Below, piece after piece: positions 13,453-56,980 of a stretch of DNA of 64,000 nucleotides (position 1 is its first letter; each line of letters opens with the position of its first letter). Where the stretch lies: assembly GCA_030523325.1 (NCBI GenBank), contig JAUNIS010000009.1, positions 1-64,000 on the forward strand, read 5' to 3'. The position numbers and the translations under genes are program-made. Origin of the DNA: Phascolarctobacterium sp. GTDB lineage: Bacteria; Bacillota; Negativicutes; Acidaminococcales; Acidaminococcaceae. The notes under the pieces were generated by a model. It was not told where the DNA came from, did no database searches, and saw nothing but the letters and a program-made list of their open reading frames with translations.

Positions 13453-16400
13453 TTAGAAGTTCCACTTAAATTGTAGTTTTGCGCCGATACCTCGTTGTTT
13501 ACCTACGGAGCCGAATCCATTGAGATCAATGTCGTAATGGTTTTTGGAGGTAAATAGATAACCGATTTCTCCGATACCGCTAGAGCCCTTGAGGGATGGT
13601 GCGTCGTTTACCCCTACACCATTTACAAGAGCATCTGCATCGCTATTGAATTCATATTGGTATGCAAGACCATAGTAGAACCTACCTTGATTTGTATACT
13701 TCTTGCTCATTCTTAGACCTACACGCAAGCGAGTGCTATCAATATCATCGAACTGGTAATTGGTGCCGTCGCTTAATTTTACATCGTCACCTTTTACGTG
13801 GGTATAGAATAGCTTGCCATAATATTCCAGGCTACGAGTATCGCTAACCTTGGTTACATAGCCCATGCCTAAGTGTGCAGCCATATAAGTGCTGTCACTG
13901 TCATAGCTTGCACGACTACCATTTGTAAAGGTACCCTTGTAGTCAATATCGTTACGACCAACACGGAATGAGCCTTCGTAATATACGCCACTATTATTGA
14001 CTTGCTTAGCCATAAAGCCGCCACCTACGTATTCGGTGTCGCCTTCACCATGTACGCCGTTATTAAGATAACTGTCGTAGCTGCCTTGGCCATATTCAAA
14101 TACAGGACCATAAGTTAAAGAGCCACTTGCGTTATTTTCCTTATAGCCAAGACCGAGGATTCCGTTCCAACCCTTGTTATCAATATGGGAGCCACTATTA
14201 TAACGCATCTTACTTGCACCAGCTAATGCGAAGATATGTGTATCACGTTCTGCCTTACCAAGAGTTTCTTGTTGCCCGTTAAGATTATCGCTATCAGCCG
14301 CGTCACTCATTGCGTCAAATCCTAAACCACTGAGCATATCAGAGCCTTGATTAATCATAGCTGCACTTGCCAGCATGGATTCAACTGGAGACTTAGCATC
14401 TTCTTTAGCTTGAGCTTTAGCACGAGCTACGTACTTACTGCCTTCTTGAGCCAAGGTGAAGTCGTAATCAACCAAATCACCGTAGAGAGTTCTTGTCCAA
14501 GTAACGCCATCAGTTATTAAATTATCTGCACTAATTAAAGTAATGACGTCATCGTTTCTGACTTCGTTCAGTTGAGCCACGTACATATTAACGTTTGAAC
14601 CGCTAATATTAGCTTCACCATTCACTGTTAAGAAAGTATAGCCGCTATTTAATGCGTAATCGCTAGGTACGTAGAAGTTGTAGTTTTGGTTATTGCCATT
14701 AGTCAAGCTACCAACGGTAAGACTTGCAGCGTTCATGCTGTCGTCATCATTCTTGCTACCAATATTCAAGGTGTTGCCACCTGCTGCACCCATATCGAGG
14801 TTACTAATATTGGCAGTAGAATTAATGTTCAGGGTATCATTCGTACCACCCAGAACCACGCTGCCAACTTTATCCGTGTTAATGTTCACGGTATTATTAG
14901 AAGCATTACCAGTCTTGCTAGAAGCAGAAGTAATTGTTCCCTCAACATTGGCATTAACATTGATAATATTATTTGTAGCTTCGCCGTTATCCGTGGAGCC
15001 ACCATAAACATTAACTTTGCCAAGAGCTGCGTTAATATTCACAGTATTATCACTTGCATTGCCTTTATCTGTAGCACCACCTACTAGATTTTCAGCACTT
15101 ACGGTCTCATTAATATTAACTGTGTTATTAGTTGCATTACCGTCGGAAGTGTTGCCACCAACTACATCGCTTGCCTTAACTCCTCCGTTGATAGTCACCT
15201 CGTTGCCTGTCGCATTGCCCTTGTCAGTAGTGCCGCCCGCAATATTTTCCAGCTTGTCACCAGTGAAGCCTGAGTTAATTGTAAGCTTACCATCTGTTGC
15301 ATCGTTAGAGCTTGCCATGACACCTGCGACGGTAGAGGCTTGAGTCGTAGTAGTTCCGCCATTTCCTAAGGTCAGGGAACCGTCACCTGTTTCACCCATC
15401 ACGGTCTTACCATCTGTTCCTATATAAGTACCGGTCAGGCTTAAGGATTCAATCTTAGCAACAATTGCTTGAGAATTATTGTCAACCTTGATATCGTAAA
15501 CTTCTACTGCCTTTTCGTTTTGCTCGGTAATAATTCCTGTCTGACCAAATTCAACCGTTTCGCCAGCAATTTGGATTTCTTTAGCTGGATTGGTATTGCC
15601 TTGAACGAGAGTCAAGCTTGTGCCTTCAGGTAATTCTTCAATAATGTTCAGACTATTTAAATTAACTGTTACATAGTTATACCAATCAATTTTATCTACA
15701 GTGATATCAAGAACAGGAGCTGCTGCACCCATAACAGCATTATCAATATTAATGGTATCGAAATTGCTAATACTATTAACTGTTCCAGACCAACCGTCGA
15801 TATGCAGGGTGTTCTCATTGTTTACGTTGGAGCCGATGAGGTCCACATTATTCAAGAGAGCGTCCTGAATGCCGCTTGTCCCGTCACCAGAATTTGCACC
15901 AAGGATGGTGACGGTGTTGCCGCTAGAAGAAGCCTCTTCGTCAACTACATAGCCGCCGTAAATTTTGGTGGTTTCGCCTTGTTTTTCAGGAGCTGCGCCG
16001 GTGGTGTAAAGGTCGGTGAAGGTGCCGGTAATAACAACATTGCCTTCATTTGCATTGCCTTCTTCAGCGAACTTACCAGCTACGATGCCAGCACCAGAGG
16101 TGGTGTACGGATCGGAACCAATTTGTAAGCTGCCGTCGCCAGTAGCACCAGTATGGGTCTTGCCTTCAGCATCGATATAAGTACCGGTCAGGGTATTTTC
16201 CAGAACTTTAGCACTAATCTTTACGCCTGCCTCGCTGGTGTCGGTAAGCTTTTCAACGCTTACGTTTACGCCAGTATCACCATAAGTATTACCAAGGAGG
16301 TCTTTAGAAATAGTGAAGGAGCCAACCTTTGCAGCGTCGCCGGTCAGGAGAACAACTTCCTCGCCAGATGCCAGAGTGGTGCTGGTGCTGTTTAATACAA

Positions 16401-19400
16401 CGTCAACATTGCTCAGGTCCGGAGTGCCGTTAATGTTGAGTACAGGTTTAGCAACGGTAGAATCAACAGTGTCGTCAAAGTTAATGGTCTTGAAGTTGCT
16501 AATGCTGTTGATGGTGCCGTTCCAACCGTTGATGACTAAAGTATTTTCATTGCTCACGGTCGCACCGGTTACGCCGCCTGCACCAATTAAATCTACGCTG
16601 CTCAAATTCGGGTCTTGCGTAATACTTGCATCGCCTGCTGCGCTGCCTTTAACAGTAATGGTATTGCCACTTGTACTAGCATTAGCACTATTCGTATAGC
16701 CGCCGTAAATTACCGTGGTTTTGTTATCCGCGGATGTATCTGTATCGGTAAAGTCGCCGGTGATAACTACCTTGCCGCCTATAACATTGTTGGCGTCGGA
16801 ATATGTACCTGCTACGATACTAGCGGTGGATTCGGTAACAGTATCACCCAAGGTCAAGATGCCCTCAGTACCGACCGTTATATCCTTATCAAGATAATTA
16901 CCGGTTAAAACGTTAGAACTGTATTCTGCATAGATACCGCCAGCTGTCTTAGCCATGTTGTAAGCAGTTAATGCACCGACTTCGATTGCCGTCTTGTCAC
17001 TGTTATAGCGACCTTCCTTGCCAAGCTCAGTAGAAGAATCACTAGCAACGCTGTAATCCGTTCCATTATAACTAATGTTTACTTGCTGAGCGGCAGCGGA
17101 GTTGCCGGAGACAAATTGATAGAGATTGCTATCGCCAAACGTAAAGTTAGCAACATTGACAGCAGTATTCGCAAGGTTGGTATCGCCCTTAGAGGAATCT
17201 AATGTAGCCTTATCATCATAGGTAGTGCTGTAAAGATTAATGGTGGAGAAATTCGCCACATTATAAACTGTATTATTTTTCCAGTTGGATTCAACGGCGT
17301 TTACATTACCGTCAACGTCTTTCGTTACAGCATAGCCAATATAAAGTACATTGCCAGAACATGTAGAACCATCACTGCCCCCGCGCAATGCTGCCTTAGT
17401 AATATCGGCTGAGCCGGACACGGCAACGATATTGTTTGTATTAGTACTGCCCTTGCCGCCTTGGACATAGACAAAATTACCCGTACTGGTAATAGTACCG
17501 CCAGTAATATTCACGAGGTTGTTAGATGTAGTACCGCCAGTTGCGTAGGCACCATGCACACCAGTAAAGTCATCGGCTTCGCCTGTAATAGTACCACCAG
17601 TAATATTTACGGTGTTATTGGTTGCAGTATAGCCTGTAGCATCAACGTAACCGCCGTAAATTGTCGCAGCTGTCGCTTCGCCGCCAAAATTGACAGTGTT
17701 ACTCATAGCTTTATATTGGGTACCCGAGTTTCCCGTAGCCTGACCACCGATAACACGACTGAGTGTGCCGCCGGTTACGTTAACAGTATTACCTGCTGCC
17801 GCATATATTGCATAACCACCACGCACGTAACCTGCGTTACCTGTAGCGGTACTTGTTACAGAACCAGCGCTAATATTTACGGTATTGCTGTTTGCAAAAA
17901 GACCACCGCCACCGTAAACATTTACCGCTACGGTTAGATTGGGATTGCTCAGATTAACCGTATTGCCAAAAGCCGCGTTATTAGAGACAGCATTAGCTGC
18001 TTGCAAAGTCGTGCCAATGCTTGAATCGGCCTCTTGGGTAAAGCCGCCGAATATTTCGCTAGCATTGACAGTGCCACCAGAAATAGTAACAGTGTTGAAA
18101 CTTGCTTCGTTAGTACCGCGCACGCCATTAGAAATAACTACGGGAGCATCAGCAAAGCCAACCGTACCAGCAGTAATTTCCACGGTATTGCTTGCTACCA
18201 GGCTGTTACTGCCTATTGCGTAACCACCAATAATATTCGTGCTGGCCACGGTCGTGAGATTGCCAGCGATAGTTATTTTGTTGGATTCAGCTGAGATGGG
18301 TGCATCTGACGTGCTTTTCGCATTAGAATAACCACCGTAGAGTGCTGCACCACTTGCCACGGTCAAACCACCTGCATCGATCTTAAAATCGCCACCACTA
18401 ACGTTTTGAGCTTCGGCGTACTTGCCCGTGATAAGGAGGGCTGTTTCACTCTTGCTAGTCGCATCATTACCGAGGATGAGCTTGCCTGCATCAGCTAGTC
18501 CTTTATAAGTTACGACGCCCTTGTCGACGAATTCGCCGGCTACAATAGTAGGATTAACCTCTACGTAAACGCCACCGTCCGTGCCTGCATTGTCATAGCA
18601 AAAAAGATTGCCTATATCTAGAGCATAATTATCCTCTGTTTTATCAGTTGCATAATTACGCACAGCAGCGCCTTTTATCCCCAGGTCACTTCCCCCGTTT
18701 TTAGACCCGTTCGTATCTTTTGTGAAATCGCTAATTCCTCCAGCAAGGAAACGAATGGAATAAACCTTAGTATTATTGCCAGCAATCAAGGTAAGCTTGC
18801 CGTCATCACCTAACATATCCGCGGTAAAATTATGAATATAAAGAGTAGTACTTCCGGACAGGTGACTTTGAACATTCGTATCCGCTAGTGTCACCACTGT
18901 ATCGGTCCCGTCAGGAATTTTTTCGTCAATAATTAATTTGCCGGTGCCATCATCCTTTGTAGTAGCAAGGTACATGTTGATGGTAGCAAACTTACCGTCT
19001 TCATTATTGGGGTTAATGGCAGCAAGGGTGCCGGTCCAAGCATTAAAATTGAGAGTGTTGCCAGATTGAACAGGTGCCTTACTATTGATTGAACCAGCAA
19101 CAAGGGTCACGCCACTCATATCGCCAGATGCACTGCTATTAACATTAATAGTGTTATTAACAAGATCAGTATATTGATCAGAATCTCTAGGCCCGACTAC
19201 TTCGCTATGAGCACCGTAAATACTCATGGTACCAGTAATAACGGTGTTAATATTAACAGTATTATTAGCCATTGTATCTGTAGTGCTAGTAGAATAAGCA
19301 CCGTAAACAGCTGTAACGTTTGGCGCGTTGGTTTTATTGATATCGTAGTTAATGTTCAGGATGCCGTAGTCCCCTGTTGAACTAGTACCATCCAACGTGT

Positions 19401-19572
19401 CAAAAGCCGTGATATATTTAGCAGTACTTTCTGAACTATTAGCATCCCAGGTCAGCACTTGCTCTGCGGCAAATGCGCTCGGTGCAGCAAGAACACTTGC
19501 TCCTAAAACTACGGAAGCAAGCACCGACTTCACTAAACGACTACTAACGTATGATTTCTTCGTGCTATTCAT
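13453..19572 (-). CDS. Giant type V autotransporter adhesin-like protein
   Basis: 2039 residues. A signal peptide (residues 1-35, cleavage after APSAFA) precedes a long Ser/Thr/Asn/Gly-rich passenger (about 36-1740) built of NTVNI-, IYGGY- and GNxVxI-type beta-helix repeats, then a C-terminal autotransporter barrel (about 1770-2039) that ends in the classic aromatic FKWNF. The passenger contains larger modules of about 240-250 residues, each opening with LTGTYI or LTGNYL. No proteolytic catalytic triad, RGD or Cys is evident, so an adhesin or surface-shielding role is inferred. An outer-membrane barrel in a genome otherwise Firmicute in content is a key sign of a diderm. It starts at ATG 19572 behind GGGGGA and is flanked by its own terminator; a second terminator-like hairpin lies in its leader. 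Confidence 0.92.
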   Translation of the reverse strand: MNSTKKSYVSSRLVKSVLASVVLGASVLAAPSAFAAEQVLTWDANSSESTAKYITAFDTLDGTSSTGDYGILNINYDINKTNAPNVTAVYGAYSTSTTDTMANNTVNINTVITGTMSIYGAHSEVVGPRDSDQYTDLVNNTINVNSSASGDMSGVTLVAGSINSKAPVQSGNTLNFNAWTGTLAAINPNNEDGKFATINMYLATTKDDGTGKLIIDEKIPDGTDTVVTLADTNVQSHLSGSTTLYIHNFTADMLGDDGKLTLIAGNNTKVYSIRFLAGGISDFTKDTNGSKNGGSDLGIKGAAVRNYATDKTEDNYALDIGNLFCYDNAGTDGGVYVEVNPTIVAGEFVDKGVVTYKGLADAGKLILGNDATSKSETALLITGKYAEAQNVSGGDFKIDAGGLTVASGAALYGGYSNAKSTSDAPISAESNKITIAGNLTTVASTNIIGGYAIGSNSLVASNTVEITAGTVGFADAPVVISNGVRGTNEASFNTVTISGGTVNASEIFGGFTQEADSSIGTTLQAANAVSNNAAFGNTVNLSNPNLTVAVNVYGGGGLFANSNTVNISAGSVTSTATGNAGYVRGGYAIYAAAGNTVNVTGGTLSRVIGGQATGNSGTQYKAMSNTVNFGGEATAATIYGGYVDATGYTATNNTVNITGGTITGEADDFTGVHGAYATGGTTSNNLVNITGGTITSTGNFVYVQGGKGSTNTNNIVAVSGSADITKAALRGGSDGSTCSGNVLYIGYAVTKDVDGNVNAVESNWKNNTVYNVANFSTINLYSTTYDDKATLDSSKGDTNLANTAVNVANFTFGDSNLYQFVSGNSAAAQQVNISYNGTDYSVASDSSTELGKEGRYNSDKTAIEVGALTAYNMAKTAGGIYAEYSSNVLTGNYLDKDITVGTEGILTLGDTVTESTASIVAGTYSDANNVIGGKVVITGDFTDTDTSADNKTTVIYGGYTNSANASTSGNTITVKGSAAGDASITQDPNLSSVDLIGAGGVTGATVSNENTLVINGWNGTINSISNFKTINFDDTVDSTVAKPVLNINGTPDLSNVDVVLNSTSTTLASGEEVVLLTGDAAKVGSFTISKDLLGNTYGDTGVNVSVEKLTDTSEAGVKISAKVLENTLTGTYIDAEGKTHTGATGDGSLQIGSDPYTTSGAGIVAGKFAEEGNANEGNVVITGTFTDLYTTGAAPEKQGETTKIYGGYVVDEEASSSGNTVTILGANSGDGTSGIQDALLNNVDLIGSNVNNENTLHIDGWSGTVNSISNFDTINIDNAVMGAAAPVLDITVDKIDWYNYVTVNLNSLNIIEELPEGTSLTLVQGNTNPAKEIQIAGETVEFGQTGIITEQNEKAVEVYDIKVDNNSQAIVAKIESLSLTGTYIGTDGKTVMGETGDGSLTLGNGGTTTTQASTVAGVMASSNDATDGKLTINSGFTGDKLENIAGGTTDKGNATGNEVTINGGVKASDVVGGNTSDGNATNNTVNINETVSAENLVGGATDKGNASDNTVNINAALGKVNVYGGSTDNGEATNNIINVNANVEGTITSASSKTGNASNNTVNINTDKVGSVVLGGTNDTLNINSTANISNLDMGAAGGNTLNIGSKNDDDSMNAASLTVGSLTNGNNQNYNFYVPSDYALNSGYTFLTVNGEANISGSNVNMYVAQLNEVRNDDVITLISADNLITDGVTWTRTLYGDLVDYDFTLAQEGSKYVARAKAQAKEDAKSPVESMLASAAMINQGSDMLSGLGFDAMSDAADSDNLNGQQETLGKAERDTHIFALAGASKMRYNSGSHIDNKGWNGILGLGYKENNASGSLTYGPVFEYGQGSYDSYLNNGVHGEGDTEYVGGGFMAKQVNNSGVYYEGSFRVGRNDIDYKGTFTNGSRASYDSDSTYMAAHLGMGYVTKVSDTRSLEYYGKLFYTHVKGDDVKLSDGTNYQFDDIDSTRLRVGLRMSKKYTNQGRFYYGLAYQYEFNSDADALVNGVGVNDAPSLKGSSGIGEIGYLFTSKNHYDIDLNGFGSVGKQRGIGAKLQFKWNF
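15290..16930 (-). repeat. Long imperfect modules inside the autotransporter passenger
   Basis: Three modules start (minus strand) at about 16912, 16194 and 15437, spaced about 717 and 757 nt. Each runs: LTG(T/N)Y(I/L), GxLxLG, a TxxASxVAG-type turn, VxITGxFTD, IYGGY, then NENTLxIxGWxGTxNSISNFxTINxD. The third copy is truncated and passes into short GGxTxxGNATxNxVxIN repeats (about 14870-15290). The copies have diverged in DNA, so they are old duplications and not recent slippage. Confidence 0.8.
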
Positions 19573-47482: not shown

Positions 47483-50400
47483 CTAAAAGAGAGAAATTTG
47501 ATTGCTCTCGGGAAGTCCGTCTAGAATTCCGTTGCTCGCAAGGAGTTCTACGGATGATTTACCAACGCCGCAACGCATACGCATATCTTCTTGAGAGATA
47601 AAAGGATGTTCGGCATCTCTGTGATCCGCAATATTTTTGGCTGCAACTTCACCTAGTCCACCGAGACTTGCAAGCGGAGGCAAAAGTCCGTCTTCCGTTA
47701 CTAAAAATTTTATGGGATGGGATTTGTAGAGATCAATCTTGTGAAACTTGAATCCGCGTTCCATCATTTCATTAGCAAGCTCAAGGTAAGTGATCTGACT
47801 CTTTTCTGTTGCAGAAGCCTTCGTGCCTAGATTATACAGATTGCGAATGGTATTCTTGACGTATTGCAATCCTTTCGATACGGGTACGTAGTCGAAATCT
47901 TTAGCACGAACTGTAAAATAAGCAGCATAAAAATGTTTGGGATAATGCACCTTGCAATAAGCAATGCGATAAGCCATGAGCACATAAGCAACTGCGTGAG
48001 CCTTGGGGAATAAATAATTCAGTGTCTCACAGGACTTCATATAGTATTCAGGAATTCCAGCTGCGGTCATTGCCTCACGCATCTCAGGTTCCAAGCCTTT
48101 TTTCGCAGCCTTACCCTTACGGCAATACTCCATAGTTTTAAAAGCAAGCTTAGGTTGGACTCCTTTGGCAATTAAATAAGTCATAATATCATCACGGGTA
48201 GAAACAGTTTCTTTAACCGGAATACCTGCGCGAATTAAGTCTTGCGCATTGTTCAGCCATACATCCGTGCCATGGGAGTAACCGGATACACGCACAACCT
48301 CGGAAAAATTTTTTGGCTTTACATCTTCGATCATTTGACGAACAAATTTTGTCCCGCATTCAGGAATGCCAAAGGTACCTACGTTGGAATCGATTTGTTC
48401 GGGCGTAACACCAAGACTAGTTGTATCTTGGAAAATTTGCATGGTCTCAACATCGCCAACAGGAATATCTTTCGCACAGAAATTAGGATCTACGTCAAAT
48501 TGCATGTAATTCTCAAGCATTTTGAGGACCATAGGATCATCATGACCCAGAATATCGAGCTTAACGAGACGATCGTTAATGCTATGATAATCGTAGTGAG
48601 TCGTAATCGTCGGCTCTTCCCTATCATCTGCAGGACGATTCATAGGCGTAATATAATGGATATCCATATTACGTGGCACAACCATTATGCCGCCAGGATG
48701 CTGGCCGGTCGTACGTTTTACACCTTCAATACCTGGTACAAGTGCACCAAGAACAGCTCCGTTCACCGTCATATTGCGTTCTTCAAAATATTTACGCACA
48801 AAGCCCGCTGCAGTTTTAGCTGCAACAGTTGCAATGGTACCAGCACGACAAACGTTGTCGCGACCAAAAAGTTCTTCCGTATATTTGTGAGCAACTGACT
48901 GGTCTGACATAGCTAAAGGATCATCGGGGTCAATGCCGCCTGAGAAATTCAAGTCGATATCTGGAACCTTGTCTCCGTCAAACCCAAGGAATACGGCAAA
49001 TGGTATTTCGTGTCCGTCACGAAACATAGGCGTTCCACAATGAGGACAATTTTTCGGTGGTAGGTCAAAGCCTGAGTCCACCTCGTTATTCATAAAAAAT
49101 TCGCTATGACGACAATTCGTACAACGATAGTGCGGCTTTAAAGGATTAACTTCCGTGATATCAAGCATGGTTGCAACAAAGGACGAACCAACTGACCCAC
49201 GAGAACCAACAAGATAGCCTCTATCTATAGAATGTTTTACTAACTTATGAGCAATGTAATACAAAACGGCGAAGCCGTTACCAATGATGGATTTAAGTTC
49301 TAGTTTTAACCGGTCTTCGACGATTTGCGGCAAGGTATCTCCATACCAAGCATGAGCTTTGGCGTAACTCATATCATGCACGGCTTCCTCTGCACCAGGG
49401 ATAAACGGGGAATAAAGCTGGTCGCGGTCAGGTACTGGTACGAAGCGTTCAACCATATCGGCAACTTTATTCGTATTCGTTACGCAAACCTCGTAGGCAG
49501 CTTCCTCGCCTAAGTATTGGAATTCCTTGAGCATCTCTTCCGTTGTACGGTAATACAAGGGCGGCTGATTATCGGCGTCCTTGTAGTTTTGGCCTGCTTG
49601 CAAGATGGCACGATATTTTGCGTCCTCAGGATTAAGGAAATGCACGTCGCAGGTGCCTACAACTAATTTGCCAAGCTTTTTACCAAGCTCATAAATTTTC
49701 TTATTGTATTCGATTAATTGCTCAACCTTGTAGCCCTTCTCCCTCACGAGGAACATATTATTCTCGATGGGTTGGATTTCGAGATAGTCGTAGAAGGAGG
49801 CAATGCGCTCAATCTCTTCTTCGCTTGCCTTAGATAAAATAGCTCGATAGAGTTCACCTGCTTCACAGGCAGAGCCAAGGATTAAGCCTTCGCGATGTTC
49901 TTCGATAACCTCTCGTGGTAAAAGTGGTTTTCGAAAAAGATAACGCAAATGGCTAATAGAAACTAATTTATACAGATTACGCAGACCAGTTTCATTTTTT
50001 GCAAGAATAATAATGTGATAGCTTGCCCTCTTCGGAGCCTTAGCTTTTTTCGTCACGTCACCCGTCTCTTGCTCTAGAGAGTCATCCACGTTACGGTCCG
50101 CCATTAAATAACCTTCCATACCGTAGATAAGTTTTAAGTCGGACTTTTCATCCATAACCTCGTCAAAGCAAAAAGGAAAGGCTTGTACAACACCGTGGTC
50201 CGTAATTGCAAGAGCCTTGTGCCCCCACTTGATAGCTTGCTTAACTAAATCCTTCATGGGAGTCACTGCATCCATCTTACTCATCTTCGTATGACAGTGT
50301 AGTTCAACACGTTTAACTTCCGCATTATCCATTCGACTTGCATTGCCATCGAGCTTTTGAATACCTAAGGGTTGGAAGTTATATTCCTGGGTATATTTAT

Positions 50401-51238
50401 CAAAGGAAAGGTTACCCTGAATGCGCAGCTTCATGCCAACCTTCAGAGCATCCTTAAATTCTTTGGCTTCTTTTTTTAGGTCCACCTCAGTTTGAGGAGC
50501 TCCGCCATAGCTTGAGCGATTATTAAAAGGCTTAGAGAAAATTTTCTTAACAGTCAACCCACCTTCTCCATCAAACAAGCTGAAGGAAACGATGATACTG
50601 CCAGTTTTAGTTTCTTTCTCTACAAAAGCTTCCATAGAACCGTCGGGCAAATAAGTTTTAACTAATTTACCCTCAACAACAATATTATTTTCTTCTTCCG
50701 TAAGGGAAAGCAAAGGACGAGCCTTACCAGCTTTAACCCTGCGACCCCAAAGCATGGAGTCGTCTTTCTTTTCCCCGTATAGATTTTCCATTGCCTGCAT
50801 GTATTGCGGGTCCATCTCCGGTTCAAAATGAACTTCGGGCGGTTCTTCAGGCAGAGGAATTTCTTCGCAATAATCTACCGTAGCATATTCATCTGCGGCG
50901 GTTTCATCTGGCAAGGGAATGCCTGAGCAATCTGTAATTGTAAATTCAGGATCAGGAGTAGCTTGTTCTTGTTTCCTGCTGTTTGTATCACAAATAAGTT
51001 TAATTTCCTTTAAAGAAAAAGCGTCCTTTAAAGCGGACGCTACTTTCTTAGTTAATGCGGGAGGCAAGGATGCATTGCATTTATAATGCACTTCCCAAAT
51101 TGATGACGCATCATCCACACATATTTGTTCTACGTGGAAAAGTTTGCAAGCAATCTTTTCCATATTGGTAAGAGAAACAGAAGACAAAAATGCTAAAAAC
51201 TTTTCTTGATCCGGTTTAAAGCAATATTTTTTCTGCAT
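47483..51238 (-). CDS. polC: DNA polymerase III alpha, PolC type, without the exonuclease domain
   Basis: 1251 residues versus about 1430-1440 in typical PolC. Order: N-terminal domain with an acidic, Pro-rich linker (about 95-160), OB-fold (about 185-300), PHP domain starting HCHTKMSKMDAVTPM (314-), catalytic DNA polymerase with a Zn-binding CTNCRHSEFF/CPHCGTP pair and PDIDLNFSGG catalytic Asp residues, ending in a GVGKSSVELL helix-hairpin-helix. The 3'-5' exonuclease (FDVETTG-type motifs) that normally interrupts the PHP domain is absent: IYGMEGYLM (371-379) passes through a 27-residue charged linker straight to SYHIIILAKN (406-). The frame is unbroken, so this is a clean domain loss. Replicative polymerase of the leading strand. 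Confidence 0.95.
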   Translation of the reverse strand: MQKKYCFKPDQEKFLAFLSSVSLTNMEKIACKLFHVEQICVDDASSIWEVHYKCNASLPPALTKKVASALKDAFSLKEIKLICDTNSRKQEQATPDPEFTITDCSGIPLPDETAADEYATVDYCEEIPLPEEPPEVHFEPEMDPQYMQAMENLYGEKKDDSMLWGRRVKAGKARPLLSLTEEENNIVVEGKLVKTYLPDGSMEAFVEKETKTGSIIVSFSLFDGEGGLTVKKIFSKPFNNRSSYGGAPQTEVDLKKEAKEFKDALKVGMKLRIQGNLSFDKYTQEYNFQPLGIQKLDGNASRMDNAEVKRVELHCHTKMSKMDAVTPMKDLVKQAIKWGHKALAITDHGVVQAFPFCFDEVMDEKSDLKLIYGMEGYLMADRNVDDSLEQETGDVTKKAKAPKRASYHIIILAKNETGLRNLYKLVSISHLRYLFRKPLLPREVIEEHREGLILGSACEAGELYRAILSKASEEEIERIASFYDYLEIQPIENNMFLVREKGYKVEQLIEYNKKIYELGKKLGKLVVGTCDVHFLNPEDAKYRAILQAGQNYKDADNQPPLYYRTTEEMLKEFQYLGEEAAYEVCVTNTNKVADMVERFVPVPDRDQLYSPFIPGAEEAVHDMSYAKAHAWYGDTLPQIVEDRLKLELKSIIGNGFAVLYYIAHKLVKHSIDRGYLVGSRGSVGSSFVATMLDITEVNPLKPHYRCTNCRHSEFFMNNEVDSGFDLPPKNCPHCGTPMFRDGHEIPFAVFLGFDGDKVPDIDLNFSGGIDPDDPLAMSDQSVAHKYTEELFGRDNVCRAGTIATVAAKTAAGFVRKYFEERNMTVNGAVLGALVPGIEGVKRTTGQHPGGIMVVPRNMDIHYITPMNRPADDREEPTITTHYDYHSINDRLVKLDILGHDDPMVLKMLENYMQFDVDPNFCAKDIPVGDVETMQIFQDTTSLGVTPEQIDSNVGTFGIPECGTKFVRQMIEDVKPKNFSEVVRVSGYSHGTDVWLNNAQDLIRAGIPVKETVSTRDDIMTYLIAKGVQPKLAFKTMEYCRKGKAAKKGLEPEMREAMTAAGIPEYYMKSCETLNYLFPKAHAVAYVLMAYRIAYCKVHYPKHFYAAYFTVRAKDFDYVPVSKGLQYVKNTIRNLYNLGTKASATEKSQITYLELANEMMERGFKFHKIDLYKSHPIKFLVTEDGLLPPLASLGGLGEVAAKNIADHRDAEHPFISQEDMRMRCGVGKSSVELLASNGILDGLPESNQISLF

Positions 51239-51245
51239 GATTTTC

Positions 51246-51980
51246 TTAAAGGTCGTCTTCGGAACTGATAACGACGTCTAAATTATGGAGACCACGAATA
51301 ACTTCTTGAGCTTGCTTCTTGTCATTGACCTTGATGTAAATATCAAGCTGCAGGCGATCATTCTTTTTATCTTTTTTAACAGCAAGACTTTTAATGTTAA
51401 CGCCATTTTCTGTTAAGTAAGAAGACACATCAGAAATTGCTTCTGGTCTATTGATTACGTCAACCTTAATATATTGACGATCTACACGAGTTGTTGCTGC
51501 AAATTTTTTATCCCAATTTTGGAAAACCATTAAAGTAATCAATGTTAAAACAGTTGCACCAAAAGATATGATATACATGCCGGAACCAACTGCAAGTCCA
51601 ATGGCAGAGATAATCCACAGAGAAGCTGCGGTAGTAAGTCCTTTAACCGTCAAGCCTTCATGCATAATCGTACCAGCACCTAAGAAACCAATGCCAGATA
51701 CTACTTGAGCTGCAATACGTGCGCTATCACGACGAGTACCAAGGTCAGTGGACTCGGGAGATACACTGACGATGCCGTCAAACCCGTAGATAGAGACGAG
51801 CATGAACAAGGCAGAACCCATACAAACCAAGATATGAGTTCTAAAGCCTGCAGGCCTATCACCACTACCTCTTTCTAAACCGACAATGCCACCAAAGGAT
51901 GCCGCAAGAAAAAGTCTAAAGAGCATCATCAACTCATGATTTGAATTTATAACTGTCAGGAGATTATTATAAAACTCCAT
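51246..51980 (-). CDS. MgtC-family membrane protein
   Basis: 244 residues. N-terminal membrane part with FGGIVGLERGSGDRPAGFRTHILVC, GAGTIMHEGLTVKGLTTAASLWI and an ACT-like C-terminal domain (about residues 155-240: VDVINRPEAISDVSSYL...LQLDIYIKVNDKKQAQEVIR). MgtC proteins inhibit or regulate ATP synthase and help survival at low magnesium in pathogens; in Firmicutes the role is less clear. It sits between proS and polC in one transcript direction, 7 nt from polC. Confidence 0.9.
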   Translation of the reverse strand: MEFYNNLLTVINSNHELMMLFRLFLAASFGGIVGLERGSGDRPAGFRTHILVCMGSALFMLVSIYGFDGIVSVSPESTDLGTRRDSARIAAQVVSGIGFLGAGTIMHEGLTVKGLTTAASLWIISAIGLAVGSGMYIISFGATVLTLITLMVFQNWDKKFAATTRVDRQYIKVDVINRPEAISDVSSYLTENGVNIKSLAVKKDKKNDRLQLDIYIKVNDKKQAQEVIRGLHNLDVVISSEDDL

Positions 51981-51995
51981 GAGTCACCTCAAAAA

Positions 51996-53705
51996 TTAAA
52001 GATTTTTTAACATATCACAAATGGTTGTGATGTAGTCGGAATCCATAGGCAACATGGAAACCTCACCTGTCTTACGAGCTTTAACTTCAAGCTTGCCTTC
52101 TTTAATAGTCTTAGGCCCAACAACTATGCGCAAGGGATAACCGATTAAATCGGCGTCTTTAAACTTAACGCCAGGTCTCTCATTACGGTCATCAATAACT
52201 GCTTCTACTCCAGCCTTCTTAAGAGCTTCGTAAATTTCAAAAGATTTATCCCAAGACTCTTTGTCTTTAGCATTTACCGGAACAACTAATGCTTCGTAAG
52301 GAGCAATATTTACGGGCCAGATAATACCGTCTTTATCAAAGCTTTGTTCTACACAGGCAGCCATGGTACGACCAACACCAATACCATAGCAACCCATATA
52401 CATAGGTTGTTCCTTACCGTTTTCATCAAGGAAGGTTGCGTTCATTGCTGCAGAATATTTAGTAAAGAGCTTAAATACTTGACCAGCTTCAATACCGCGA
52501 GCCTTTTCCATTTTAGCACCGCAGTGAGGACAGGGATCGCCAACTTGAGCCAAACGAATATCCGCTACGTAGGTGGGTTTAAAGTCGCGAAGCGGATTAG
52601 CATTTACATAGTGATAGCCTTCTTTATTAGCACCACAGCAAATATTGTGCATTTTCATCACGCTTTGATCGATTACAATGGTAACCTTTTCGGGATCGAG
52701 ACCAATGGGACCCATGTATCCGCCAACAGTACCTGCTGCAGCCAAGAGACTCTCATCAGCCATTTCTACTTCGTTAACGCCAACTGTATTAGCAACTTTA
52801 ATTTCGTTAACCTCATGATCGCCACGCACAAAACAGAGAATGAGACCTTTTTCAGAACCAAAGGCAACAGCTTTCATGCTATGGTCCACGGGAGCATTTA
52901 AGAAAGAACAAACATCGTTAATAGTTTTACAGTTAGGAGTTGCAATCATTTCTAAAGTTTTTTCTTCTTCAGCAGGAGCTTCCACAACATTGAGTTCAGC
53001 CTTTTCAATATCGGCTGCATAATCACAAGCTGTGCAATAAGCAATTTCTGCTTCACCTGTATCGGCAAGCACCATGAATTCATGAGAACCATTACCTCCG
53101 ATAGCACCTGAATCGGCTTCAACAGGACGGAAGGTTAAACCACAACGAGTAAAAATGTTTGTATAAGCGTCGAACATATCTTTGTAGGATTTATCCAAGC
53201 CTTCGTTATCACGGTCAAAAGAATAAGCATCCTTCATGATAAAGTCACGGCTACGCATAAGACCAAAACGAGGACGACGTTCGTCACGGAATTTATCTTG
53301 AATTTGGTATAAGTTAAGAGGAAGCTGGCGATAAGATTTAACATCCATACGCACCATGCTGGTAACAAGCTCTTCGTGAGTCGGACCGAGGCAATATTCA
53401 TGACCGTGACGGTCCTTAACACGAATCATTTCTGCACCATAAACTCCCCAACGACCTGACTCTTGCCAGATCTCAGCAGGTTGCATGATGGGCATCATGA
53501 TTTCTTGAGCACCCTTGTTATCCATTTCTTCACGTATAATGTTTTCGATTTTTTTGATGACGCGCCAAGCCAAGGGTAAGTAGGTATACATACCGTTGGT
53601 AGATTTACGCATAAAACCAGCACGCAATAAAAGTTGATGACTAGGAATCTCTGCTTCAGCAGGAACCTCGCGCAGAGTAGGAGCATACATTTGAGATACT
53701 TTCAT
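51996..53705 (-). CDS. proS: Prolyl-tRNA synthetase (bacterial type with editing domain)
   Basis: 569 residues, normal for the ProS type with the INS editing insertion. Class II motifs: motif 1 region ...YTYLPLAWRVIKKIENIIREEM, motif 2 FRDERRPRFGLMRSRDFIMKDAYSFD, motif 3 GIGVGRTMAACVEQ. The insertion (about 230-380) carries a CDYAADIEKAE... and later CCGANKEGYHYVN, and the anticodon-binding domain follows. ATG 53705 overlaps the ispG stop by one base (TAATG), so proS is coupled to ispG. Confidence 0.97.
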   Translation of the reverse strand: MKVSQMYAPTLREVPAEAEIPSHQLLLRAGFMRKSTNGMYTYLPLAWRVIKKIENIIREEMDNKGAQEIMMPIMQPAEIWQESGRWGVYGAEMIRVKDRHGHEYCLGPTHEELVTSMVRMDVKSYRQLPLNLYQIQDKFRDERRPRFGLMRSRDFIMKDAYSFDRDNEGLDKSYKDMFDAYTNIFTRCGLTFRPVEADSGAIGGNGSHEFMVLADTGEAEIAYCTACDYAADIEKAELNVVEAPAEEEKTLEMIATPNCKTINDVCSFLNAPVDHSMKAVAFGSEKGLILCFVRGDHEVNEIKVANTVGVNEVEMADESLLAAAGTVGGYMGPIGLDPEKVTIVIDQSVMKMHNICCGANKEGYHYVNANPLRDFKPTYVADIRLAQVGDPCPHCGAKMEKARGIEAGQVFKLFTKYSAAMNATFLDENGKEQPMYMGCYGIGVGRTMAACVEQSFDKDGIIWPVNIAPYEALVVPVNAKDKESWDKSFEIYEALKKAGVEAVIDDRNERPGVKFKDADLIGYPLRIVVGPKTIKEGKLEVKARKTGEVSMLPMDSDYITTICDMLKNL

Positions 53706-54781
53706 TAGTGAGAAACCTTCCTCTCCAGTAAAATTTTATCAATTTCAACGAATAATTCGTCAACTATTTTATCTTCAGGGACCTTACGGAGAACCTCTCC
53801 CTTACGGAAGATAAGTCCCTCTCCTTTGCCACCTGCAATACCAACATCAGCCTCACGAGCTTCGCCAGGTCCATTAACAACACATCCCATAACAGCTACG
53901 ACGATTGGTTCTGTAATTTCGCTCAGACGTTTTTCAACCTCAAGGGCAAGCTTTTCTAAATTAATTTGCGTACGTCCACAAGTAGGACAAGAAATTAATG
54001 TGGGACCATATTCACGTAGTCCTAAGGATTTAAGAATATTATAAGCAACTTTGACTTCATTAACCGGGTCACCTGTTAAGGAAACGCGAATGGTATCTCC
54101 AATACCCTCGGCAAGGAGTGTGCCAATACCTACGGCAGATTTAATAATACCGCTGTTAATTGTTCCAGCTTCCGTAACACCTACATGCAAGGGATAATCG
54201 CATTGACTTGCCATAAGACGATACGCAGACAAGGTAGTCGGCACGTCGTGGCATTTCAAGGAAACTTTAATATTACGATAGTCCATGTCTTCTAAAATTT
54301 TAATATGTCGCCAAGCAGCCTCAACCATTGCCTCAGGAGTCGGGTGACCATATTTTTCTAGAAGATCTTTTGGCAAGGAACCTGCATTAACACCGATACG
54401 AATGGGGATATTTTTGGGTCTGGCTGCTTCTACAACCGCACGGACTCTGTCTTCCCCACCAATATTGCCTGGATTCAAACGCAATCCGTCGACACCAGCT
54501 TCAATTGCAGCTAAGGCAAGTCTGTAATCGAAGTGAATATCAGCAATGACTGGGATAGGACTTTCCTTGCAAATTCGTTTTAAACCTTCAGCCGCAGCCA
54601 TGTCGGGGACGGCACAACGAATAATATCGCAACCAGCTTTAGCAAGCTCACGAATTTGCGCGAGAGTCGCCTCAGCATCATGTGTCTTCGTATTAGTCAT
54701 AGATTGAACGGTAATCTTAGCATTACCGCCAATTTTTTGAGAGCCAAGTGTTAACTCCCTGGTTATTCTTCTCTTATACAT
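53705..54781 (-). CDS. ispG: 4-hydroxy-3-methylbut-2-enyl diphosphate synthase
   Basis: 358 residues. [4Fe-4S] enzyme of the MEP isoprenoid pathway. TIM-barrel with ALAAIEAGVDGLRLNPGNIGG, then the cluster-binding C-terminal domain with SCPTCGRTQ and MGCVVNGPGEA, whose Cys are the ligands. Its presence with dxr, uppS and cdsA puts most of the isoprenoid/lipid block in one cluster. The short bacterial form without the plant-type insertion is normal. Confidence 0.97.
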   Translation of the reverse strand: MYKRRITRELTLGSQKIGGNAKITVQSMTNTKTHDAEATLAQIRELAKAGCDIIRCAVPDMAAAEGLKRICKESPIPVIADIHFDYRLALAAIEAGVDGLRLNPGNIGGEDRVRAVVEAARPKNIPIRIGVNAGSLPKDLLEKYGHPTPEAMVEAAWRHIKILEDMDYRNIKVSLKCHDVPTTLSAYRLMASQCDYPLHVGVTEAGTINSGIIKSAVGIGTLLAEGIGDTIRVSLTGDPVNEVKVAYNILKSLGLREYGPTLISCPTCGRTQINLEKLALEVEKRLSEITEPIVVAVMGCVVNGPGEAREADVGIAGGKGEGLIFRKGEVLRKVPEDKIVDELFVEIDKILLERKVSH

Positions 54782-54789
54782 GGAACACC

Positions 54790-55812
54790 TCAGAAAAATC
54801 TAGTGACATCTTTAAATGTTGAAAAGATGGTAATGGCAAGAATTAAAACGATGCCTGCATATTGAACGCGATTCATCCAAATAGGACTCAAGGGTTTGCC
54901 TCTTAATGCTTCAACTATGAGCAGAAAGAAATGTCCTCCGTCAAGTGCGGGCAAGGGCAACAAATTAATTACGCCTAAGTTTATACTCATTAAAGCTACA
55001 AAGCTAAAGAGAGGCATGAGACCTTTTTCAGCCATTTGCCCAGCTACCTGAGCAACACCGATTGGTCCTGCTACATCGGCTGCTGCCTTACCAATAACAA
55101 TTTGTTTTAAAGCATCAAGCATGTATTCGATTACATAAACGGTGTATCTAATCGCCATAATGAAGGCTTGCACTGGTCCAACTGTTTCGTGAGTGGTACA
55201 GGGAATGATGCCGATGACAGCGCGCTTGCTTTCTTCGTTATACTTAGGAGTCATGACAAAGCTTTGTACCTTGCCTTCACGTTCAATTTTCAGTTGAACT
55301 TCTTTTTCACCATTGGCACGCAAAGTCTTTTGGATATCGCGCCAGGTTGTCATTTCCTTATCATTAATAGTAAGGACCTTGTCACCTGCCTTGAGTCCAG
55401 CTCTTTGTGCAGGTGAATATTCGACTATTTGTCCGAGCACAGGAATGTCTTGAACCTGTTCCTGACCTTCGAACATAAAAATGCCTGTAAATAAAGCAAT
55501 TGGCAAAAGAAAATTCATAAAAGCACCAGCAAGAATAACAGCCATACGCGAGAGAATGGGCTTATTGTTGAAGCCATCCTCACAGGGCTCGTCGTCTGGA
55601 TCCATGCCAGCAATTTTATTATACCCACCTAAGGGAATCAATCTAAGGGAATATTCCGTGTCCCCTTCTTTTGTTTGATATATGCAGGGACCGAAACCAA
55701 TGGCAAATTCTTCTACCTTCATGCCTGTCATTTTAGCTACAATAAAGTGACCGAATTCATGCACGGTAATAAGAACGCCAAAAACAAAAATAGCTGCTAA
55801 AATCGTTAGCAA
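54790..55812 (-). CDS. rseP: Site-2 protease RseP
   Basis: 340 residues from TTG 55812, which has CCGGAGGAT upstream; earlier in-frame ATG codons lie within dxr. Zinc metalloprotease of the inner membrane. HEFGH (about residues 17-21) is the zinc motif in the first membrane helix, a PDZ domain (about 110-200: GQIVEYSPAQRAGLKAGDKVLTING-like) follows, and the third motif NLLPLPALDGGHF is near the C-terminus. Substrates such as anti-sigma factors are not present here. 16-nt gap to dxr. Confidence 0.94.
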   Translation of the reverse strand: MLTILAAIFVFGVLITVHEFGHFIVAKMTGMKVEEFAIGFGPCIYQTKEGDTEYSLRLIPLGGYNKIAGMDPDDEPCEDGFNNKPILSRMAVILAGAFMNFLLPIALFTGIFMFEGQEQVQDIPVLGQIVEYSPAQRAGLKAGDKVLTINDKEMTTWRDIQKTLRANGEKEVQLKIEREGKVQSFVMTPKYNEESKRAVIGIIPCTTHETVGPVQAFIMAIRYTVYVIEYMLDALKQIVIGKAAADVAGPIGVAQVAGQMAEKGLMPLFSFVALMSINLGVINLLPLPALDGGHFFLLIVEALRGKPLSPIWMNRVQYAGIVLILAITIFSTFKDVTRFF

Positions 55813-55828
55813 AATCTTATCCTCCGGA

Positions 55829-56980
55829 TTACAGATTACGAATAATTTCTCTTGCCTGCTTACGAGCTTGAGCATCGCTTATCTCAATATCTTCTATGGA
55901 AGGCTTCAAGATATTGTTATGAGCTTGAGTAACCTTATTCGTAATATAGGGAATGTCTAAATATTTAATTTTGTCATCTAAGAAAGCATAAACTGCCTCC
56001 TCGTTCGCTGCGTTAAAGACGCAAGGTAACGTTCCTCCTGCCTTGCCACATTCTATGGCTATACCAAGGGAAGGAAATGCTTCCATATCAGGAGCTTCAA
56101 AGGTTAATGTACCATGACGAATTAAATCCAATTGATCAAAAGCAATAGGATAACGCTCAGGATAACTCAAGGCGTATTGGATGGGCAGACGCATATCTGG
56201 TTCCCCAAGCTGGGCTATAACGGAGCCATCACAAAATTCAACAAGACTATGCACGATGCTTTGAGGATGCACAACGACATCAATCTTTTCATAAGGCATG
56301 TTAAAGAGCCAATGTGCTTCGATAACTTCTAAACCTTTGTTAGCCAATGTAGATGAATCTACTGTAATTTTTTTGCCCATGGACCAATTAGGATGGTTCA
56401 AGCATTGAGCTAAAGTAACGGATTCTAAATCGCTACGTTTTTTACCGCGGAAGGGTCCACCACTTGCTGTAATTAAAAGGCGTTTTACTTCGTTTTCTCT
56501 TCCTCCTCGTAAAGATTGAAAGATTGCCGAGTGCTCACTATCAACCGGAGTCAGGCTTACACCTGCTTCTTTTACTGCACTCATAACGAGACTTCCACCT
56601 GCTACAAGAGTTTCTTTATTAGCAAGGGCAATATTTTTTCCGCTCTTAATTGCAGACATGGTAGGACGAAGTCCTGCGTAACCAACCATGGAAGCAAGGA
56701 CGGTGTCAATGCCAGAATAAGTTGCTGCTGCAAGGAGTCCTTCTTCCCCGGTTAAAATCTCCGTCTTACCTTGGTAACGTGTTGCTAAGCGTTTGGCTGC
56801 CTCGATGTCTGTTAGAACAACGAAGTCAGGCTCAACAAGTTTGATTTGCTCTTCCATGAGTTTATCAGATGAATGAGCAGCCAACACGCGAATTTTCATT
56901 TTGTCAGGGTTCGCCAGGGCAACATCAATTGTTTGACGACCGATGGAACCAGTTGAACCTAAAAGTGAAATATTTTTCAT
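55829..56980 (-). CDS. dxr: 1-deoxy-D-xylulose 5-phosphate reductoisomerase
   Basis: 383 residues, normal. Second step of the MEP pathway. NADPH motif ISLLGSTGSIGRQTIDV at the N-terminus, ALANKETLVAGG, PVDSEHSAIFQ (metal ligands Asp, Glu), TASGGPFRG and TVDSSTLANKGLEVIEA. All active-site residues visible. It is separated from cdsA by 5 nt. Confidence 0.97.
   Translation of the reverse strand: MKNISLLGSTGSIGRQTIDVALANPDKMKIRVLAAHSSDKLMEEQIKLVEPDFVVLTDIEAAKRLATRYQGKTEILTGEEGLLAAATYSGIDTVLASMVGYAGLRPTMSAIKSGKNIALANKETLVAGGSLVMSAVKEAGVSLTPVDSEHSAIFQSLRGGRENEVKRLLITASGGPFRGKKRSDLESVTLAQCLNHPNWSMGKKITVDSSTLANKGLEVIEAHWLFNMPYEKIDVVVHPQSIVHSLVEFCDGSVIAQLGEPDMRLPIQYALSYPERYPIAFDQLDLIRHGTLTFEAPDMEAFPSLGIAIECGKAGGTLPCVFNAANEEAVYAFLDDKIKYLDIPYITNKVTQAHNNILKPSIEDIEISDAQARKQAREIIRNL

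Follow-up and report, generated by a model that had tools for sequence, protein, structure and literature searches.

The polC gene of the 64,000-nucleotide stretch of Phascolarctobacterium sp. DNA analysed here (the window) encodes a PolC that lacks the DnaQ-like exonuclease (Exo) domain while retaining every metal ligand of its PHP domain. Judging from the sequence, mismatched primer ends are probably removed by the trinuclear-metal site of this PHP domain, with DnaE assisting.

The polC locus and the site of the missing domain

The open reading frame on the minus strand starts with ATG, has no internal stop and encodes 1251 aa. Both NCBIfam PolC models scored over their cut-offs, i.e. 1361.6 bits for NF001688 (cut-off 873) and 1261.9 bits for TIGR01405 (cut-off 1043.45), which by these profiles makes the product a bona fide PolC. 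The features of the locus are as follows.

47483..51238, minus strand: polC, PolC-type DNA polymerase III alpha subunit without DnaQ-like Exo domain (NF001688, TIGR01405)
50102..50317, minus strand: first half of the PHP domain, approximately residues 308-379, with ligands H314, H316, D323, H348 and E375 (Pfam, alignment)
50024..50101, minus strand: short loop, approximately residues 380-405, at the Exo insertion site of other PolCs (ligand spacing, pLDDT)
49484..50023, minus strand: second half of the PHP domain, approximately residues 406-585, with ligands H408, C458, D531 and H533 (alignment)
47843..49381, minus strand: polymerase core, approximately residues 620-1132, with the catalytic-type acidic residues D760, D762 and D895 (Pfam DNA_pol3_alpha, finger)
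47504..47755, minus strand: helix-hairpin-helix region, residues 1162-1245 (Pfam HHH_6)
47486..47500, minus strand: C-terminal QISLF, a canonical beta-clamp-binding motif (sequence)
51246..56980, minus strand: mgtC-like gene, proS, ispG, rseP and dxr, upstream of polC (Pfam)

Pfam matched PHP, DNA_pol3_alpha, finger and HHH_6 domains, with PHP forming one uninterrupted match over residues 312-489. Upstream of it, an OB-type region is indicated by predicted strands and by co-alignment with the Geobacillus kaustophilus PolC structure 3f2b from residue 255, rather than by a dedicated OB model. The motif PDIDLNF and the Asp of LKLDILGH were invariant across 40 exo-less PolCs, and a QISLF-type tail was the commonest tail among exo-less and Exo-containing PolCs alike.

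Whether Exo is present, degenerate or missing, the relatives have proS upstream of polC; ispG, rseP and dxr lie farther upstream where the sequence extends that far. Since the proS-side neighbourhood is common to all three Exo states, the window gene is the orthologous polC and no paralogue. It is the usual, single-locus polC of a member of the Negativicutes, in its naturally exo-less form. The nearest of four named loci was the PolC of a Phascolarctobacterium MAG (Negativicutes, Acidaminococcales), with 74 % identity over residues 1-490; together with the genome groupings, this match places the window in the Negativicutes. Elsewhere in the window, a 2039-aa open reading frame (13453-19572, minus strand) gave zero Pfam matches at E 0.001.

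No RNase_T/Exonuclease domain was found by Pfam or NCBIfam anywhere in the full protein, and the Exo profile positions (approximately 180-367) were skipped in the alignment to the PolC family model. The spacing between ligands E375 and H408 is 32 residues. PolCs with Exo have 198-219 residues at this point (mode 213), and the remaining exo-less PolCs have 5-84, mostly 12-18. The insert is consequently about 181 residues shorter than the Exo-containing mode. The Enterococcus faecium PolC (9qpc) aligned in two pieces, 83-381 and 402-1251, and about 200 residues of its chain between these pieces found no counterpart, while 3f2b aligned as one piece. The Exo domain of G. kaustophilus PolC, described as an insertion in a loop that borders the route of the DNA towards the PHP site (PMC5636811), had been taken out before crystallisation of 3f2b (PMC12592400), and the natural exo-less PolC is therefore approximately the same construct as that of the crystallographers.

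An AlphaFold2 model of residues 255-1251, built from 40 aligned exo-less PolCs (mean pLDDT 88.5, pTM 0.80), had 3f2b as its top PDB match (TM 0.87-0.88). It shows confident strands on both sides of the loop, one of them at residues 369-379, with disorder only at residues 389-400 (pLDDT <50). The Exo domain is thus cleanly absent, and a loop of 32 residues, disordered in part, connects the two halves of PHP. The closest relatives, with 75-76 % identity over the modelled region, share this exo-less architecture. These results bear out the preliminary description, in which the protein was judged about 185 residues short, the missing part was taken to be the DnaQ-like Exo within PHP, and the strand peptides IYGMEGYLM (371-379) and SYHIIILAKN (from 406) were placed on either side of a short linker without frameshift.

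Distribution and repeated loss of the exonuclease domain

The loss is not peculiar to the Phascolarctobacterium sp. of the window, and proteins of this kind were published in 2013. Timinskas et al. (PMC3919608) found exo-less PolCs in Clostridia and Negativicutes, accounting for 6 % of PolCs, with one Thermotogae extra copy outside these classes; such forms are still classed as PolC in the literature (PMC3919608). In the family of the window genome (39 genomes), all resolved PolCs lack Exo, those of G020 and G024 being fragmented, and the same holds for every PolC among those listed for the class (252 genomes, 86 genera). PolC was present in all 252 class genomes, including ones as small as 1.3 Mb, and exceeded the model cut-off in 248.

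Beyond the class, 398 evenly sampled Bacillota genomes were used, 280 of which had a PolC over the cut-off and 118 none above it. Around 133 of the 280 carry Exo and two a degenerate Exo; the remainder are mostly exo-less (roughly half of the PolC-bearing genomes), and in a few the gene is cut by a contig end. Exo-less PolC is thus a known kind whose frequency and pattern are extended here, and our sample suggests that what was a surprising rarity in 2013 is a common natural form.

Three Negativicutes genomes (G072, G074 and G030) harbour two full-length polC-like genes each. Furthermore, within family f76 the PolCs of L172 and L173 on the one hand and of L149 and L212 on the other fall into two clades far apart, of which one carries Exo and lies near Lachnospiraceae-like PolC and the other is exo-less. 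Replacement of polC by horizontal transfer in this family is possible.

On a tree of 108 PolCs, estimated with the insert columns left out, the Exo state switches at least 11 times, corresponding to 16 losses under a loss-only model. Within the Exo-containing PolCs, Exo distances correlate strongly with polymerase distances (Mantel Spearman 0.725, against at most 0.251 in 999 permutations). This fits inheritance of Exo together with the polymerase rather than repeated import, and disfavours the idea that Exo was regained several times from unrelated sources. When the tree is rooted with DnaE, an exo-less clade branches first, on a topology with a very long outgroup branch and weak deep forks.

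One genus, g170, displays Exo loss in progress with PHP retained. In two of its species (L153 and L208, from G375 and G487) PolC still has an Exo of 198 residues, but none of the catalytic D-E, D and H-D motifs is left in it. In a third species (L151, from G346) Exo has been deleted down to a 39-residue loop; other genera of the same family (f48) have an intact Exo.

The PHP metal site and the source of proofreading

In the window PolC, the alignment places all nine PHP ligands (H314, H316, D323, H348, E375, H408, C458, D531 and H533, i.e. HHDHEHCDH), and the nine-ligand motif HHDHEH[C/H]DH is the criterion for an active PHP domain (PMC12926913). The set is complete in all 137 exo-less PolCs and in 53 of the 67 Exo-containing ones, including both with a degenerate Exo (Fisher p = 6e-8, uncorrected for relatedness). 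Because the PHP defects amount to only 2-3 inactivation events on the tree, this association is suggestive, not decisive, and its phylogenetically corrected strength is modest.

The commonest defect is Asn at the D531 position, found in 12 sampled Exo-containing PolCs. The equivalent mutation, D226N, inactivates Mycobacterium tuberculosis (Mtb) DnaE1, and G. kaustophilus PolC, in which one PHP ligand is mutated, has no PHP exonuclease activity (PMC5636811). Two further Exo-containing PolCs, L165 (f105; HHDHEPFDH) and L168 (f151; HHDHEHTDH), have non-Asn ligand changes, apparently PHP inactivations independent of the Bacillus-type Asn. A complete ligand set is necessary, not sufficient, for PHP exonuclease activity, and in Escherichia coli Pol III the PHP domain also plays a structural role (PMC3666897). 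Exo-less PHP domains showed no newly conserved residues outside the insert, and compensating residue changes in their PHP or polymerase parts were essentially absent, so that nothing further points to PHP having taken on a stronger role.

According to the reading that we consider probable, mismatched primer ends would be cut by the 3'-5' exonuclease of the PolC PHP trinuclear-metal site, as in the DnaE enzymes of M. tuberculosis and Thermus. The DnaE of the same cell, which has all nine PHP ligands in the window genome and in 10 relatives, would aid proofreading. The DnaQ-type Exo would then represent a redundant second proofreader, lost in many Bacillota lineages in which the PHP proofreader was retained. 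This predicts a PolC able to proofread by PHP alone. Evenly balanced, in our judgement, is the broader proposition that around half of the PolC-bearing Bacillota, including all examined Negativicutes, rely on PHP-only PolC proofreading, Exo being dispensable and lost repeatedly, always with PHP intact, with some near-complete genomes free of DnaQ. If so, genus g170 and the DnaQ-free Negativicutes would form a natural series on how a replicase swaps proofreaders. The exo-less form may also be relevant to PolC-targeting drugs, as the solved structures stem from Exo-containing enzymes.

Alternatively, DnaE1 could be the main accurate replicase, with PolC confined to a limited or special role in which fidelity is only weakly selected, an idea raised for bacteria with PolC and DnaE1 and partially supported there by exo-less PolCs (Timinskas et al., PMC3919608). 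The complete PHP site of DnaE in the window genome and the 118 of 398 Bacillota genomes without PolC above the cut-off would fit such a division of labour. It is nevertheless unlikely, considering that PolC is kept throughout the class even in the 1.3 Mb genomes, that the PHP and polymerase parts of exo-less PolCs are as conserved as those of Exo-containing ones and end in a clamp-binding tail, and that relaxed selection would be expected to have cost some PHP ligands.

That a stand-alone exonuclease of the DnaQ/epsilon-like type proofreads in trans is quite unlikely, even though the window genome offers a candidate. It encodes two RNase_T proteins, i.e. a KapD-like one and a 200-aa DEDDh protein on contig 43 (L001:1417-2019), whose top matches are PolC Exo domains (NF001688, 1.6e-48; PDB 2p1j, 3e-34) and to which similar genes are present in several relatives. 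However, an RNase_T match (PF00929) is missing from 6 of the 39 family genomes, several others having only a weak KapD-type match, and from 11 of the 215 class genomes that are at least 95 % complete, one of them (G180) being a single contig of 4.8 Mb. With TIGR00573, 10 of these 11 were likewise empty and G197 gave a sub-threshold match. Since ten Negativicutes genomes of at least 95 % completeness have no DnaQ-family match, a separate DnaQ is no general answer, and its absence from several near-complete genomes speaks against an obligatory replacement. In the RNase_T-free genomes, the PHP site was complete where examined, both in PolC (L007, L014, L029, L033, L034, L049 and L059) and in DnaE. 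The 200-aa protein itself does not exceed 39 % identity with any of the Exo domains sampled, which rejects a recently split-off PolC Exo, and no clamp-binding motif was seen in its C-terminal tail. The search for stand-alone nucleases covered the DnaQ family (PF00929, TIGR00573), and a non-canonical proofreader of another nuclease family may operate in the DnaQ-free genomes.

A polymerase without any proofreading, in a lineage that tolerates a mutator and leans on mismatch repair, would agree with the lack of a DnaQ Exo in PolC, but is highly improbable for a class-wide, long-kept state in which every exo-less PolC has preserved its nine PHP ligands. Of the three outcomes foreseen in the preliminary description, PHP-based proofreading is thus the one favoured by the complete ligands, whereas the separate exonuclease is present but not conserved and the mutator is argued against by the class-wide distribution. 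Finally, although the sequence comes from a draft assembly in 85 contigs, an assembly or sequencing deletion or a frameshift has a negligible probability and was ruled out by the open frame, the conserved junction and the identical architecture in all relatives from the family and the class, which are independent genomes and in some cases single contigs.

Comparison with known systems

The exo-less PolCs of Clostridia and Negativicutes (PMC3919608) have the same NTD/OB/PHP/Pol3/HhH arrangement as the window PolC, likewise without Exo insertion, occur in the same taxonomic range and also co-occur with a DnaE having an intact PHP site. The protein is therefore identical in kind; here, however, the form is far commoner than in the 2013 survey and an intermediate with a degenerate Exo is seen. 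What the present analysis adds is the frequency in the sample, the finding that the form arose repeatedly and that an intermediate can be seen, and the strict co-occurrence with an intact PHP.

Typical PolCs, such as those of Bacillus, Geobacillus and Enterococcus (3f2b, 9qpc), share around 50 % core identity, the fold, the gene neighbourhood and the clamp-binding tail with the window PolC. They differ by the DnaQ-like Exo of around 200 residues between the PHP strands and, in the sampled Bacillus-like PolCs, by Asn at one PHP ligand.

The same nine-ligand PHP site is found in M. tuberculosis DnaE1 and the Thermus DNA polymerase III alpha subunit, and the loop of Mtb DnaE1 at the Exo insertion point measures 29 residues (PMC5636811), compared with 32 between the ligands in the window PolC. 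Nonetheless, these enzymes are DnaE-type, with around 20 % identity over the whole model, and the PHP exonuclease that has been demonstrated experimentally in them is predicted for the window PolC.
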